A DNA stretch of 64,000 bases from positions 2,766,501 to 2,830,500 of the forward strand of contig NZ_CP121694.1 in assembly GCF_035573695.1 (NCBI RefSeq). Direction: 5' to 3'. The DNA is from Metallumcola ferriviriculae. Its GTDB lineage: Bacteria; Bacillota; JADQBR01. Position numbers and translations under genes: made by a program. Below are positions 1,940 through 58,163 of the stretch, one piece after another. The notes under the pieces are model-generated. The model saw nothing but the letters and a program-made list of their open reading frames with translations, was not told the DNA's origin and ran no database searches. Each line of letters begins with the position of its first letter. Positions within the stretch are counted from its first letter, which is position 1.

Positions 1940-1984
1940 AATAACTTGACAAAATGGTGTCAGGCACCTTTTTGTCAAGTTATT
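1940..1984 (+). repeat. REP-like 45-bp palindrome, copy 1
   Basis: Member of the dispersed family: arms AATAACTTGACAAAA(T/A)GGTG and the reverse complement around a five-base centre, with one mismatch near the middle of the stem. This copy is in the ATGGTGTCAGGCACC orientation. It sits in non-coding DNA upstream of the small Cys protein. Confidence 0.9.
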
Positions 1985-9771: not shown

Positions 9772-9816
9772 AATAACTTGACAAAATGGTGTCAGGCACC
9801 TTTTTGTCAAGTTATT
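9772..9816 (+). repeat. REP-like palindrome, copy 2 (3' flank of RAYT)
   Basis: Full 45-bp copy in the ATGGTGTCAGGCACC orientation, ending 32 bases beyond the stop of the RAYT gene. With copy 3 it forms an inverted pair around the transposase gene, the arrangement expected for the parental RAYT locus. Confidence 0.92.
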
Positions 9817-9848
9817 GTCGTAACATATTGACGTCGCTATTTATGTCG

Positions 9849-10733
9849 TTAAAATTCATTCCGCCAACGCTGTAATAAATCGCTAACTGCCGCTCTGCTC
9901 ATGGAGAGGGCAGCGCCGATGTCTTCTAGAGAATAACCCACTTTTAGTGCTTCTTTGGCAAAAGTGACTTTAATGGGCGTAAGGTTTCGTGACCTGGACC
10001 CTGATTTCAACAGCGTAAACTGGCTCGGGTTGGTACACTTTTCTCTAAGTATTTGGTCTAACTGTATTCCGCCGCCAAATACCTTTATCCCCGAAGCACC
10101 GAAATCAGTCTCTGATGTGGCGGCAATTTCTGCAGCAACGGTAAATTCAAACTCGCCGATAAACTTACCTTTTTCATAATTAGTATTATCTTCTGTATCC
10201 ATAAAATCCTGATACATCGCCACCGCTTGGGAGTGTTCTTGGGATAGGGTGTTGAGAATTAATTTAGAATTTATCAGGCCGGTCGCGTCTGAGCCTTGCC
10301 GGTAACATTCATCGCTAGTCCATGGATACTGGCTCACTTCCTGACATATGCCCGCTTTGACAGGGTTCTGATGAATATACCTTAGCACTGCCACCAGGTA
10401 ACTCTCGTCCCGCACCAGCAATGCCTTATAGCGCCCTTGAAACACATGACCCTTCCGCTCGTGTTTCCAGTTATAATATCGAGCATAACGGCTGTTAAAC
10501 TGCTGCATCAGCACTTGCAAAGGCGTTCCCAGCCTCTGCAGCAGCAGGTGATAGTGATTGTTCATGATAACATATCCAAGCAGTCTGAAATCCATATCCG
10601 GCACCATTTCTCTTAGCAGCATCAGCAGGTATTGTTTGTCATAATCCCGCTCAAACACAAACTCTTTGTTATTACCCCGCTGAATTACATGGTAAATCGC
10701 ACCTTCAAACTCAATCCGTGGCATACGACCCAT
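9849..10733 (-). CDS. REP-associated tyrosine transposase (RAYT, IS200/IS605-like Y1 family)
   Basis: 294 residues. The N-terminal two thirds are a Y1/HUH nuclease. It starts MGRMPRIEFEGAIYHVIQRG, has the HUH motif in GYVIMNNHYHLLLQ (about residues 54-67), and has the downstream catalytic region SRYARYYNWKHERKGHVFQG with candidate tyrosines, then VLRYIHQNPVKAGI. The C-terminus ends in a helix-turn-helix (GYSLEDIGAALSMSRAAVS). RAYTs nick single-stranded DNA at REP hairpins and are thought to disperse them. This gene is flanked by oppositely oriented copies of the 45-bp palindrome that recurs across the window. GGTGGGGTG lies 5 bases before the ATG at 10733. Confidence 0.92.
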   Translation of the reverse strand: MGRMPRIEFEGAIYHVIQRGNNKEFVFERDYDKQYLLMLLREMVPDMDFRLLGYVIMNNHYHLLLQRLGTPLQVLMQQFNSRYARYYNWKHERKGHVFQGRYKALLVRDESYLVAVLRYIHQNPVKAGICQEVSQYPWTSDECYRQGSDATGLINSKLILNTLSQEHSQAVAMYQDFMDTEDNTNYEKGKFIGEFEFTVAAEIAATSETDFGASGIKVFGGGIQLDQILREKCTNPSQFTLLKSGSRSRNLTPIKVTFAKEALKVGYSLEDIGAALSMSRAAVSDLLQRWRNEF

Positions 10734-10764
10734 AATATCACCCCACCCGCGGTTTCACGGTTTG

Positions 10765-10809
10765 AATAACTTGACAAAAAGGTGCCTGACACCATTTTGT
10801 CAAGTTATT
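10765..10809 (-). repeat. REP-like palindrome, copy 3 (5' flank of RAYT)
   Basis: Full 45-bp copy in the opposite orientation to copy 2 (AAAAAGGTGCCTGACACC on the plus strand), 31 bases upstream of the RAYT start codon. Copies 2 and 3 are nearly equidistant (about 32 bases) from the two ends of the gene. Confidence 0.92.
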
Positions 10810-13227: not shown

Positions 13228-13456
13228 AATATCTACCTTCCTTTACTTACTGGGTATAACATCATATGCCTCAGGGCCTGTCAACTGACGTGTAATCCTG
13301 GTGACAAATCACATTAATACCTCATATGTATTGTATTATAACAAAAAAATGTGCCCTGTCCCACATAATTAACGTTAATGGAAGGTTTAACAGGGTAAAA
13401 TGCAAACTGACGCAACCCACAAAACAGAAAACTTTACCAAAATATCCTGCGGGTTA

Positions 13457-13486
13457 TTGACATATGCTCAAAATAAGCAGTATAAT
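13457..13486 (+). promoter_or_regulatory. sigma-A promoter, upstream copy
   Basis: TTGACA (13457-13462), an 18-base spacer and TATAAT (13481-13486). Both hexamers match the consensus. It is the duplicate of the promoter 220 bases downstream and would transcribe a 19-codon mini-ORF and then the second promoter region. Confidence 0.8.
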
Positions 13487-13532
13487 TGATTTAAACATAT
13501 GCTCAAAACTTTGAAAGGTGGGGATTATTATT

Positions 13533-13592
13533 ATGAAAAAAAGAATTGCAGTTCATTATAACAAAAAAATGTGCCCTGTCCCACATAATTAA
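13533..13592 (+). CDS. 19-codon upstream mini-ORF produced by the duplication
   Basis: The first copy of the gene start (ATG at 13533 with GGTGGGG upstream) reads MKKRIAV like the real gene. It then runs across the duplication junction into HYNKKMCPVPHN and a TAA at 13590-13592. It has the same ribosome binding site as the functional gene, so it is probably translated, but it is a by-product rather than a protein of known role. Confidence 0.5.
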   Translation: MKKRIAVHYNKKMCPVPHN

Positions 13593-13676
13593 CGTTAATG
13601 GAAGGTTTAACAGGGTAAAATGCAAACTGACGCAACCCACAAAACAGAAAACTTTACCAAAATATCCTGCGGGTTA

Positions 13677-13706
13677 TTGACATATGCTCAAAATAAGCAG
13701 TATAAT
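13677..13706 (+). promoter_or_regulatory. sigma-A promoter of the NifX-like gene, proximal copy
   Basis: TTGACA (13677-13682), 18-base spacer, TATAAT (13701-13706), followed after about 30 bases by GGTGGGG and the ATG at 13753. A very strong consensus promoter, consistent with control by a repressor or activator binding the adjacent direct repeats. Confidence 0.85.
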
Positions 13707-13728
13707 TGATTTAAACATATGCTCAAAA
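13680..13728 (+). promoter_or_regulatory. paired 14-base operator-like direct repeats
   Basis: ACATATGCTCAAAA occurs at 13680-13693 (in the -35/-10 spacer) and at 13715-13728 (just after the -10). The repeat step is 35 bases. The first copy is also part of a near-palindrome TTGACATATGCTCAA. The positions suggest a repressor site; the DUF134 regulator 600 bases downstream is the obvious candidate. Identical copies exist in the upstream duplicate at 13460-13473 and 13495-13508. Confidence 0.6.
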
Positions 13729-13752
13729 CTTTGAAAGGTGGGGATTATTATT

Positions 13753-14166
13753 ATGAAAAAAAGAATTGCAGTTCCTTCTGAGACACCGGGCGGTTTGGGA
13801 GCCAGCCGGTCTGCGCATTTCGGTCATTGTGATGTATTTACAATGGTTGATATTGAGGATGGAGAAATTAAAGATGTCTCCGTGCTGCCTAATAGCGACC
13901 ACGAGCACGGCGGATGTCTAGCCCCGGTAAAGGCTCTGCTGTTAAACGGCGTCCGAGCCATGGTGGTAGGTGGTATGGGACCGAACCCGCTGGCCGGATT
14001 TCAAGCGGCGGGTATCTCAGTCTATCTCGGCAGCGGTGACACTGTAAAGGATGCAGTACAGGCTTTTGTCGATAACAGTGCACCGCGAATGGATAATAAT
14101 TCGACTTGCGGCTGCGGCGGGCATGGTCATGACCATGAGCATGAGCATGGTCACTGCCACGGATAA
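13753..14166 (+). CDS. dinitrogenase iron-molybdenum cofactor biosynthesis (NifX/NifB-C) family protein with His-rich tail
   Basis: 137 residues of the PF02579 type: MKKRIAVPSETPGGLGASRS, then SAHFGHCDVFTMVDIEDGEI, and MVVGGMGPNPLAGFQAAGI, the ligand-binding fold of NifX/NifY and the NifB C-terminus. The tail after residue 118 is a metal-binding run with two Cys and many His (CGCGGHGHDHEHEHGHCHG). Members outside nif operons are thought to bind metal clusters or act in Fe-S/metal homeostasis. The start at 13753 has GGTGGGG upstream. One of only a few plus-strand genes; followed by a DUF134 regulator. Confidence 0.88.
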   Translation: MKKRIAVPSETPGGLGASRSAHFGHCDVFTMVDIEDGEIKDVSVLPNSDHEHGGCLAPVKALLLNGVRAMVVGGMGPNPLAGFQAAGISVYLGSGDTVKDAVQAFVDNSAPRMDNNSTCGCGGHGHDHEHEHGHCHG

Positions 14167-14173
14167 TATTTTA

Positions 14174-14200
14174 GTGACATACTTGACACCATTTTGTCAC
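14174..14200. repeat. decayed fragment of the REP-like palindrome between small direct repeats
   Basis: ACTTGACACCATTTTGTCA is the palindrome with about 13 central bases removed (ACTTGAC joined to ACCATTTTGTCA). It is bracketed by two CGGATAATATTT repeats at 14159-14170 and 14203-14214; a third GGATAATATT follows at 14218. It looks like a deletion derivative. Confidence 0.55.
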
Positions 14201-14241: not shown

Positions 14242-14286
14242 AATAACTTGACAAAAAGGTGCCTGGCACCATTTTGTCAAGTTATT
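14242..14286 (-). repeat. REP-like palindrome, copy 5
   Basis: Full 45-bp copy with the perfectly self-complementary core GGTGCCTGGCACC. It sits between the NifX-like gene and the DUF134 gene, ending 5 bases before the latter's ribosome binding site. Confidence 0.92.
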
Positions 14287-23918: not shown

Positions 23919-23963
23919 AATAACTTGACAAAATGGTGCCAGGCACCTTTTTGTCAAGTTATT
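23919..23963 (+). repeat. REP-like palindrome, copy 7
   Basis: Full 45-bp copy with the symmetric core GGTGCCAGGCACC, in the ATGGTG orientation, in the 159-base gap between the aminotransferase and glycosyltransferase genes. Confidence 0.92.
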
Positions 23964-36762: not shown

Positions 36763-36900
36763 TCAGTCCGGCCCAGTGAACCAACCACCGACGATAATTG
36801 GTTTGCCGGTAATGACACCAAATTCATTATGTCCTTTAAGCTTAGCAAACTCGTCCATCATCCAGGCCATTACCTGAGGGTTTGTATATACATCCTGTGC
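36763..36900 (-). pseudogene. glutamate dehydrogenase fragment
   Basis: The stretch [20 protein letters not shown] then [17 protein letters not shown] (36784-36894) aligns without gaps to residues about 147-183 of the intact glutamate dehydrogenase at 56465-57760 ([20 protein letters not shown]...). Nothing on either side resembles the enzyme, so it is a ~110-bp relic. It differs from the intact gene at several positions (PQ for AQ, AKL for SKY, II for LI), so it is an old copy or a remnant of a second dehydrogenase. It sits just upstream of the sigma-54 activator. Confidence 0.85.
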
Positions 36901-42695: not shown

Positions 42696-42736
42696 AATAA
42701 TTGAAATGGTGCCAGGCACCTTTTTGTCAAGTTATT
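42696..42736 (+). repeat. REP-like palindrome, deletion form (41 bp)
   Basis: Matches the 45-bp family with the core GGTGCCAGGCACC and an intact right arm. The left arm reads AATAATTGAAATGG, lacking one C and a CAA, which weakens the stem. Confidence 0.85.
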
Positions 42737-56464: not shown

Positions 56465-57760
56465 CTAGGCCAAGCTAATCTTACGCTCTTTCTCCACTTT
56501 GGGCGCTTCTCCCAACCAGCCGCGCACTCGCATAGCCTCACTGACACGGGCAATGGCCACCATGTAAGCGGCGGTACGCATGTCGATATCTTTTCGACTT
56601 CTGTACATCTGATATACCTCGTCAAAAGCGCGTACCATCATGGCTTCTAACTTACCATTCACCTCTTCTTCGGTCCAGTAATAACCCATATTATTTTGTA
56701 CCCATTCAAAGTATGACACGGTCACACCACCGGCATTAGCTAATATATCAGGCAGAACCAGCACACCTTTATTGGTAAGTATTCTGTCTGCGCCGGGAGT
56801 GGTGGGACCATTGGCCGCCTCGCCGATTATTTTCGCCTTAACCTTGGGAGCAATTTCTTCAGTAATCTGGTTTTCCAGAGCAGCAGGGATCAGGATGTCA
56901 CAAGGCATTGTTAATAACTCAGCGTTGGTAATATGTCTGCTGCCGGGATAATGTGCGACGCTTCCGGTTTCCTTTTTATATTCCTCTAACTTTTGGGTGT
57001 TAAGTCCTTTAGAACTGTATGCCCCGCCTGTAGAGTCAACTACTGCAACGATCTTGCAGCCCAAGTCCTGAAGCAATTCAGCCACAATACTGCCTGCGTT
57101 GCCATAACCCTGCACTGCAACGGTAGCATCTTTTAGGTCGAGACCAATAGCTTTTGCCGCCTCACGTACTGTAAAGCTGCACCCTCTGGCAGTAGCCTCA
57201 TTGCGCCCGGCAGACCCGCCCACAATTAAAGGCTTACCGGTGATAACTCCGAATTCATTATGTCCCTTGTATTTGGAGAACTCATCCATCATCCAGGCCA
57301 TTACCTGAGCGTTAGTATAAACATCCGGGGCAGGCACGTCTTTTTCTGCTCCCAGGATAGGGGATACTGCTCGAATGTACTCCCGACTAAGCCGCTGTAT
57401 CTCCCGATCAGACATTTCCTTCGGATTACAGATTACCCCGCCTTTGGCACCGCCGTAGGGCAGACCTAGTACGGCACATTTAAAAGTCATCCACAATGCT
57501 AACGCCCTGACTTCATCCAGAGTAACGCCAGGATGAAAGCGAATGCCGCCTTTAAGAGGTCCCAAAGCATAGTTATGCTGCACGCGGTAACCGGTAAACA
57601 CTTTAACACTACCGTCATCCATCTCTACCGGTACGGCCACCGTAAGTTCCCGCACCGGTTGGCGTAAGATATCCAGCACCGTAGAAGATAAACCCAAAGT
57701 TTTAACTGCCAACCCTATTTGCTCTTGCGCTATTTGGTAACTGTTCAACTGTTTATTCAT
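56465..57760 (-). CDS. gdhA: glutamate dehydrogenase (Glu/Leu/Phe/Val family)
   Basis: 431 residues: GPLKGGIRFHPGVTLDEVRA, LALWMTFKCAVLGLPYGGAK then GGVICNP with the catalytic Lys, [20 protein letters not shown] (catalytic Asp), and the Rossmann segment ATVAVQGYGNAGSIVAELLQ. It interconverts glutamate and 2-oxoglutarate + NH3, recycling 2-oxoglutarate for the aminotransferases in this window. AAAGGAG stands 10 bases before the ATG. It has its own sigma-54 promoter, unusual for a GDH, pointing to a catabolic role. A 110-bp relic of a related gene lies at 36.8 kb. Confidence 0.95.
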   Translation of the reverse strand: MNKQLNSYQIAQEQIGLAVKTLGLSSTVLDILRQPVRELTVAVPVEMDDGSVKVFTGYRVQHNYALGPLKGGIRFHPGVTLDEVRALALWMTFKCAVLGLPYGGAKGGVICNPKEMSDREIQRLSREYIRAVSPILGAEKDVPAPDVYTNAQVMAWMMDEFSKYKGHNEFGVITGKPLIVGGSAGRNEATARGCSFTVREAAKAIGLDLKDATVAVQGYGNAGSIVAELLQDLGCKIVAVVDSTGGAYSSKGLNTQKLEEYKKETGSVAHYPGSRHITNAELLTMPCDILIPAALENQITEEIAPKVKAKIIGEAANGPTTPGADRILTNKGVLVLPDILANAGGVTVSYFEWVQNNMGYYWTEEEVNGKLEAMMVRAFDEVYQMYRSRKDIDMRTAAYMVAIARVSEAMRVRGWLGEAPKVEKERKISLA

Positions 57761-57887: not shown

Positions 57888-58102
57888 GCACCGTATTCTG
57901 TATTCAACTTTTAGCAGCTTTGTTTCAAAATGCTCCTGTGCATCTTTTTGTTTGCTTATTTATATGGCAGCCCGCTGTTATCCTTAGTCTCAACCTCCTA
58001 GTAATTAATGCAGCCTCCACTCGCCTTTCATGCGTTTGTACATCTTATTATCTATTCCCCTCAGGTCTTTTGCGGAGTCTGAAACTTTATTGCCTTTGCT
58101 TG
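57888..58102. other. intergenic, no supported gene
   Basis: Pyrimidine-rich on the plus strand. An open frame extends across it from inside gdhA but encodes a Leu/Cys-rich sequence with no signals. Nothing else seen. Confidence 0.4.
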
Positions 58103-58133
58103 TTACTTATTGGTGTCAGACACCAATAAGTAA
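58103..58133. repeat. 31-bp perfect palindrome (variant REP class)
   Basis: TTACTTATTGGTGTC, a central A, and GACACCAATAAGTAA. It shares the TGGTGTCAG(A/G)CACC core with the 45-bp family but has different arms, lacking the CTTGACAAAA segment. It lies just before the AOR terminator. Confidence 0.8.
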
Positions 58134-58163
58134 CACCTGATTACCAAAACTTATATTTTCTGA

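Follow-up and report, generated by a model that had tools for sequence, protein, structure and literature searches.

The spread of REP-like repeats and the persistence of RAYT genes are unsettled questions. Elements of the IS200/IS605 group use hairpin substrates and move without target duplication, and the RAYTs were reportedly classified by Bertels and colleagues in 2017. Canonical REP/RAYT systems, which belong to TnpA-Y1 subclasses 2.2, 2.4, 2.5, 2.7 and 2.8, carry the tetranucleotide GT[AG]G at the hairpin foot, and the double-foot REP of subclass 2.4 has been explained by a central deletion in an inverted dimer (PMC6006769). In subclass 2.1, which possesses a C-terminal HTH-like extension (HTH_23, HTH_28 or Bac_DnaA_C) with weak and varying matches, no REP-like sequences were found alongside and the target of the HTH domain was left unsaid (Quentin 2018, PMC6006769). 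The same study likened subclass 2.1 to the TIRYTs of Di Nocera. The TIRYT report (Di Nocera 2013, PMC3733652) describes a GGGGWSAS motif in the inverted repeats of most, not all, of its cases and some self-complementary terminal inverted repeats.

The window analyzed here is a stretch of 64,000 nucleotides (positions 2,766,501-2,830,500) in the genome of Metallumcola ferriviriculae, which consists of one contig of 3,720,236 bases (3.72 Mb). It encodes a predicted HUH/Y1 nuclease, RAYT-A, flanked by two oppositely oriented copies of a 45-bp palindrome (palindrome A) at distances of 32 nt (copy 9772) and 31 nt (copy 10765), in agreement with the first-pass annotation, which had described a Y1/HUH RAYT bracketed at about 32 bases. 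RAYT-A matches the Pfam family Y1_Tnp (50.7 bits, 2.4e-13) and just reaches the NCBIfam REP_Tyr_transpos cut-off (80.1 bits versus 80). Its HUH motif is formed by H60-Y61-H62 and the candidate catalytic tyrosine is Y119; residues H60, H62 and Y119 are invariant across the alignment of 32 relatives. With this HUH motif and one candidate catalytic tyrosine within its Y1_Tnp domain, RAYT-A has the hallmarks of the TnpA-Y1/RAYT superfamily.

The predicted structure of RAYT-A, built on the alignment of its relatives, has a mean pLDDT of 88.6 with a confident core, followed by a low-confidence linker (residues 207-220) and a confident helical, HTH-like C-terminal domain (residues about 225-293). Fold search revealed that the nearest solved structure is E. 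coli TnpAREP in complex with REP DNA (PDB 4er8), with an E-value of 6.6e-8, and that the IS200/IS605 transposases rank after it; 4er8 was also the only match in a sequence-profile search of the PDB. The extra C-terminal HTH claimed earlier is better supported by this modelled helical domain than by sequence, where the HTH_23 match (16.6 bits) lies below the cut-off of 24.6. Among the relatives, the matches of this region to Sigma70_r4, HTH_23, HTH_28 and Bac_DnaA_C are likewise weak and varying.

Table 1. RAYT-A and the palindromic repeats of the window (window coordinates).
Feature	Position	Strand	Basis
RAYT-A, predicted HUH/Y1 single-strand nuclease, 294 aa	9849..10733	-	ORF, Pfam Y1_Tnp, NCBIfam and fold
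Palindrome A, 3' side of RAYT-A	9772..9816	+	pattern search
Palindrome A, 5' side of RAYT-A, orientation opposite to the 9772 copy	10765..10809	-	pattern search
Palindrome A, dispersed copy	1940..1984	+	pattern search
Palindrome A between phoU-like and Na/Pi-cotransporter-like genes, provides the phoU stop codon	12510..12554	-	
Palindrome A, immediately 5' of GAAAGGGGG, a Shine-Dalgarno-like site for the gene that follows (ATG about 14303)	14242..14286	-	
Palindrome A, dispersed, overlaps a stop codon	18892..18936	-	
Palindrome A, dispersed copy	23919..23963	+	pattern search
Palindrome A, dispersed, overlaps a stop codon	28445..28489	-	
Palindrome A, dispersed, overlaps a stop codon	60023..60067	-	
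41-bp form of palindrome A, deleted copy or half unit (core and one arm)	42696..42736	+	
Degenerate remnant of palindrome A, ACTTGAC-ACCATTTTGTCA	14180..14199	+	sequence
Unit resembling family B, core as in palindrome A, GTTACTTATT-GGTGTCAGACACC-AATAAGTAAC	58102..58134	+	

All nine full-length copies that the first-pass annotation had listed are found at their positions, and both the 41-bp form and the fragment near 14180 are present (Table 1). The 41-bp form may be a palindrome that lost four bases or, equally, a half unit. Counted across the genome, as had been proposed, palindrome A is present in 53 copies when searched with a 33-nt inner pattern allowing at most three mismatches, compared to zero for the reversed control pattern; folded as single-stranded DNA, it reaches -17 to -22 kcal/mol, with a z-score of about -9 to -10. 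Chance is ruled out by this copy number against the control and by the hairpin z-score.

Analysis of 50 readable copies revealed seven haplotypes, four sequence types covering 46 of the copies. Only one copy departs from the arms AATAACTTGACAAAA / TTTTGTCAAGTTATT, and the variable sites are the A/T that borders the core at each end, one core pair and the loop base. The low divergence noted earlier is thus borne out, but not its confinement to the five central bases. To judge from the sequences, such near-identity would imply either recent spread or strong constraint. The copies are clustered, as 35 of the 50 listed ones lie within 2.40-3.01 Mb versus 8.2 expected, in a region of ordinary coding density, and the median spacing is 10 kb compared to 51 kb in simulations. 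The window sits inside this cluster; the density of one copy per 6 kb given before is true locally, whereas the genome as a whole has one copy in about 70 kb.

Base -1 is a C in 56% of the arm flanks. An extension of the palindrome by a C...G pair was rejected, as the left and right flanks are uncorrelated (21 complementary pairs versus 19.0 in shuffled sets), and the C therefore represents a flank preference outside the palindrome A unit. Asymmetric copies of family A occur in both orientations, which excludes a strand bias. The copies stand singly, not as the paired inverted REPs with short spacing of REPIN/BIME arrays.

The gene context was defined by a simple hexamer-scored gene caller, not by curated annotation, and covers about 0.84 Mb of the genome. 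All 50 copies are located outside genes, in 42 co-directional and six convergent gaps and two at the edge of the analyzed sequence, whereas none of the 50 is found in a divergent gap, though 57 of the 467 background gaps are divergent. A stop codon is overlapped by 16 of 48 copies, the foot supplying TAA in 11, TGA in four and another in one. At the junction of the phoU-like and Na/Pi-cotransporter-like genes, only a short spacer follows the GAATAA stop in a relative from another genus (G001), and the palindrome is absent. Moreover, neither of the two other genomes examined from the family, order and class contains palindrome A.

The strictly intergenic location at 3' ends with no divergent gap, the terminator-like patterns on either strand of the copies and the stable RNA hairpin would be consistent with palindromes retained for a host role, as bidirectional terminators, mRNA 3'-end stabilizers or operators, their mobility being over and the RAYT domesticated. 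We consider this reading unlikely, because the few haplotypes, the absence from relatives and the family-specific clusters point to recent spread, and because one copy lies between the phoU and Na/Pi genes, a place at which a strong terminator would do harm.

In the same part of the window, positions 13335-13774 comprise a perfect 220-bp tandem duplication upstream of a NifX-like gene at 13738, each copy bearing a promoter-like TTGACA-18-TATAAT site.

Compared to E. coli REP/TnpAREP (group 2, PMC8266576), the present system shares the 4er8 fold, the intergenic hairpins, the gene-flanking copies and a single RAYT per repeat family. However, RAYT-A is longer with an extra C-terminal domain, the GTAG foot is absent, and family A consists of single palindromes instead of BIME/REPIN arrays. 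We searched for a GT[AG]G foot in the palindrome A sequence and by flank composition in 50 copies, and found none; the arms start with AATAAC and the flanks have no conserved tetranucleotide. Like the subclass 2.4 double-foot REP (PMC6006769), the long hairpin carries a foot and its complement at either end, but the foot here is AATAA[C/G]TT and the RAYT belongs to another subclass. A canonical REP/RAYT system (TnpAREP groups 2/3 with GTAG-tagged hairpins) that happens to sit in a Firmicute is quite improbable, despite the fold match to E. coli TnpAREP, the borderline REP_Tyr_transpos score and the dispersed intergenic palindromes, since, apart from the missing foot, the C-terminal domain and the clade fit subclass 2.1, where no REP has been reported (PMC6006769), and the units beside the gene form inverted repeats whose core does not resemble that of REP.

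In its mode of action, RAYT-A with its palindrome would resemble a REP/RAYT system, but it lacks the GT[AG]G that marks canonical REP. The earlier description as a REP/RAYT system in a Firmicute stands as to a RAYT-like HUH protein with a dispersed palindrome (4er8 fold, 53 copies, core following the clade), and has to be amended as to type, the missing GT[AG]G foot and the fit to TIRYTs setting it apart from the canonical form. Many dispersed intergenic palindromes, 53 in number and with 50/50 outside genes, are linked to a flanked RAYT gene. RAYT-A also resembles IS200/IS605 transposases (IS608, ISDra2) in its HUH/Y1 catalytic core fold, but the distinct left and right subterminal hairpins of these elements are absent at RAYT-A; the gene is single-copy, and nothing indicates a mobile element that includes it.

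The closest described system is the TIRYT/TIRtron (PMC6006769, PMC3733652), which similarly combines an HUH/Y1 domain and a C-terminal HTH-like extension, a putative one in RAYT-A, with a moderately abundant repeat family, and in which the gene is flanked by inverted repeats, as RAYT-A is. The differences lie in the repeat. Its core here is GGTGYCWGRCACC, not GGGGWSAS, though some overlap with published TIRYT sequences is possible; the GGGGWSAS motif is not carried by the RAYT-A clade, and GGGGAC/GGGGTCA cores are present in the sister clade. In addition, the family A repeat is a full palindrome and the core follows the protein clade. Judged by sequence, palindrome A looks like a fused form of a TIRYT terminal inverted repeat. 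A literature search with the core sequences returned no relevant paper.

The core GGTGYCWGRCACC is present 132 times in the genome, compared to once for the control. Besides palindrome A, it occurs in two sister RAYT/repeat families missed by the first-pass annotation, families B and C, which share the core but have different arms and their own RAYTs, 54% and 42% identical, respectively. Family B (arms AATAAGTGACA) has 65 units in the analyzed DNA, near RAYT-B (349 aa, 54% identical), and many of its cores are paired at about 36-50 nt. Family C consists of half units of the form AATAAGTTAATAAGTTAAGTGCCTGGCACC and is accompanied by two RAYT-C genes, which, in contrast to the single-copy RAYT-A, share 99.6% identity across 1,036 bp. 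All nine copies of the family have plus orientation and fall within 29 kb (2,591,480 to 2,620,076); an extra minus-strand match with three mismatches at 2,723,143 appears unrelated.

The family C copies, some of them nested or truncated, have the core end in common and a variable opposite end. A tandem repeat of at least 10 nt begins at or near CACC beside six of the nine cores, versus 0.4% of control sites, and tandem duplications of at least 12 nt were found in 3/25 cases in relatives versus 0.1%. At the full palindromes of family A, tandem micro-duplications are little above control. The arrangement of family C may reflect local, one-ended copying, although it is a pattern rather than a demonstrated mechanism. 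Beside one family C unit, an acyl-CoA synthetase-like gene (L019:144-1325) is apparently truncated by the half unit, its C-terminal residues TKRTVTKRTV being the translated micro-duplication. Family A also includes six clear half units, AATAACTTGACAAAAAGGTGCCTGRCACCA, which end right after CACC-A and are followed by unique DNA; all six have the minority A-type arm, compared to 26 of the 94 arms of exact full copies.

To compare cores with RAYT phylogeny, RAYT loci were labelled by the core within 260 nt, on a tree of 84 proteins. The 29 loci bearing the label GTGCC[A/T]GGCAC and no other all belong to a single clade with 40 members (support 100/98), in which no other label occurs; the remaining 11 of the 40 rows have no core by the patterns used, though some carry variant cores. 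By contrast, GGGGACGGTTCTC (25 rows) and GGGGTCAGG-like cores (11 rows) are found in the other clade of the tree. The five core labels require 16 changes on the tree versus 44.8 when shuffled. The shuffles take no account of kinship, although many genera are covered by the split. These sequence relationships suggest that every branch of the RAYT family may have a hairpin core of its own. At most RAYT relatives the core has a fixed place, at about -56 to -80 nt on the upstream side and, as a rule, no more than 50 nt away on the downstream side. The RAYT genes of Desulfotruncus, Desulfoscipio, Desulforamulus, Natronincola and others are flanked at a fixed distance by the core GGTGYCWGRCACC with AATAAGTT-type arms, the units being half units in some relatives and symmetric palindromes in others.

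Because the order and class of the window were represented by three genomes including this one, the association between core abundance and the RAYT was assessed in a phylum sample of 398 genomes, with thresholds of E <= 1e-70 for a close-clade RAYT and E <= 1e-20 for any RAYT. The exact core GGTGCCWGGCACC is present in seven of nine genomes with a close-clade RAYT versus 50 of 389 others (Fisher 2.5e-5). A more modest difference was seen for at least three cores, found in 10/15 genomes with any RAYT at E <= 1e-20 versus 108/383 (p 0.003). The association in the phylum is real but not strict; an exception to the proposal that copy number tracks the RAYT is G371, a 92% complete genome with 28 cores and similar arms, yet no RAYT at E <= 1e-20. 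For family A, the two relatives do not show the case regarded beforehand as refuting, identical palindromes in close relatives without the RAYT; in the wider core family, G371 is an exception. The core units of G371 lie at L184, L187, L190, L193 and L196, some with AATAAGTGT-like arms. Core half units such as CGACAAAATTCGGGT-GGTGCCAGGCACC also occur in G297, where they are clustered, and in G078, with no RAYT detected in either (L183, L185, L188, L191, L194 and L197).

That palindrome A is a MITE-like element mobilized by an unrelated (DDE) transposase, with the RAYT a chance-flanked bystander, is highly improbable: the symmetric palindrome, the near-identical copies and the core in some genomes without a detected RAYT would agree with it, but none of 50 copies has a direct target-site duplication of at least 3 nt as sought for a DDE-type MITE, RAYT-A is bracketed on both sides at 31-32 nt, and one core flanks one RAYT clade over many genera, with other cores flanking the sister clade.

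Altogether, RAYT-A is probably a TIRYT-type RAYT with palindrome A as both its cognate substrate and its dispersed product, a variant of the REP/RAYT theme. We propose that RAYT-A cuts single-stranded DNA as a member of subclass 2.1 (TIRYT) within the TnpA-Y1/TnpAREP superfamily. Three parts make up the repeat unit: the foot AATAA[C/G]TT, which is conserved, an arm particular to each family, and the core GGTGYC-W-GRCACC of 13 nt. Its ancestral form would be a half unit of foot, arm and core, with the core outermost, placed as an inverted repeat to the left and right of the gene. The full palindrome of family A might have arisen when two such units, inverted to each other, joined via one shared core. 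We infer that RAYT-A itself would recognize the folded single strand through the core hairpin and the foot, cut at the unit and mobilize it, the unit being rejoined at AT-rich single-stranded intergenic sites without target duplication. Copies in coding sequences would be purged, and those at 3' ends would survive where the foot can give a stop codon. The spread of family A would be recent.

With RAYT-A as a probable member, subclass 2.1 would gain repeats of known layout, a core that tracks the protein phylogeny and three sister families within one genome. More tentatively, and with doubt, subclass-2.1 RAYTs in general might use a clade-specific core code (GTGCCWGGCAC, GGGGACGGTTCTC, GGGGTCAGG) together with a local, strand-biased mode of copying from one end, in which the target would acquire tandem micro-duplications at the fixed core end, full palindromes arising by core fusion of two units. 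The clade-specific core and the family C junction patterns are the parts most deserving experiment. Together with the repeat anatomy, the sister families and the recent-looking copies with their telling junctions, they offer direct substrates and specificity-swap tests. The findings also suggest that many short clostridial palindromes may belong to a RAYT/core system.

Further observations concern RAYT loci in relatives and another repeat of the window. In G001, an other-clade RAYT with GGGGACGGTTCTC palindromic repeats (L206, G001:C14, 5897-6799) occupies the position of RAYT-A after the Na/Pi cotransporter gene. Orthology with RAYT-A is excluded by the other clade and the different core, and the matching place may reflect independent occupation of the site or gene replacement. 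In Geosporobacter ferrireducens, two RAYT genes (L108 and L131) share 96.7% identity across 889 bp, short flanks included, which suggests that a RAYT gene can be copied together with its repeats. Outside the palindrome family, the window contains a 116-nt repeat at 36785-36900 and 57216-57331, the two copies being 78% identical.
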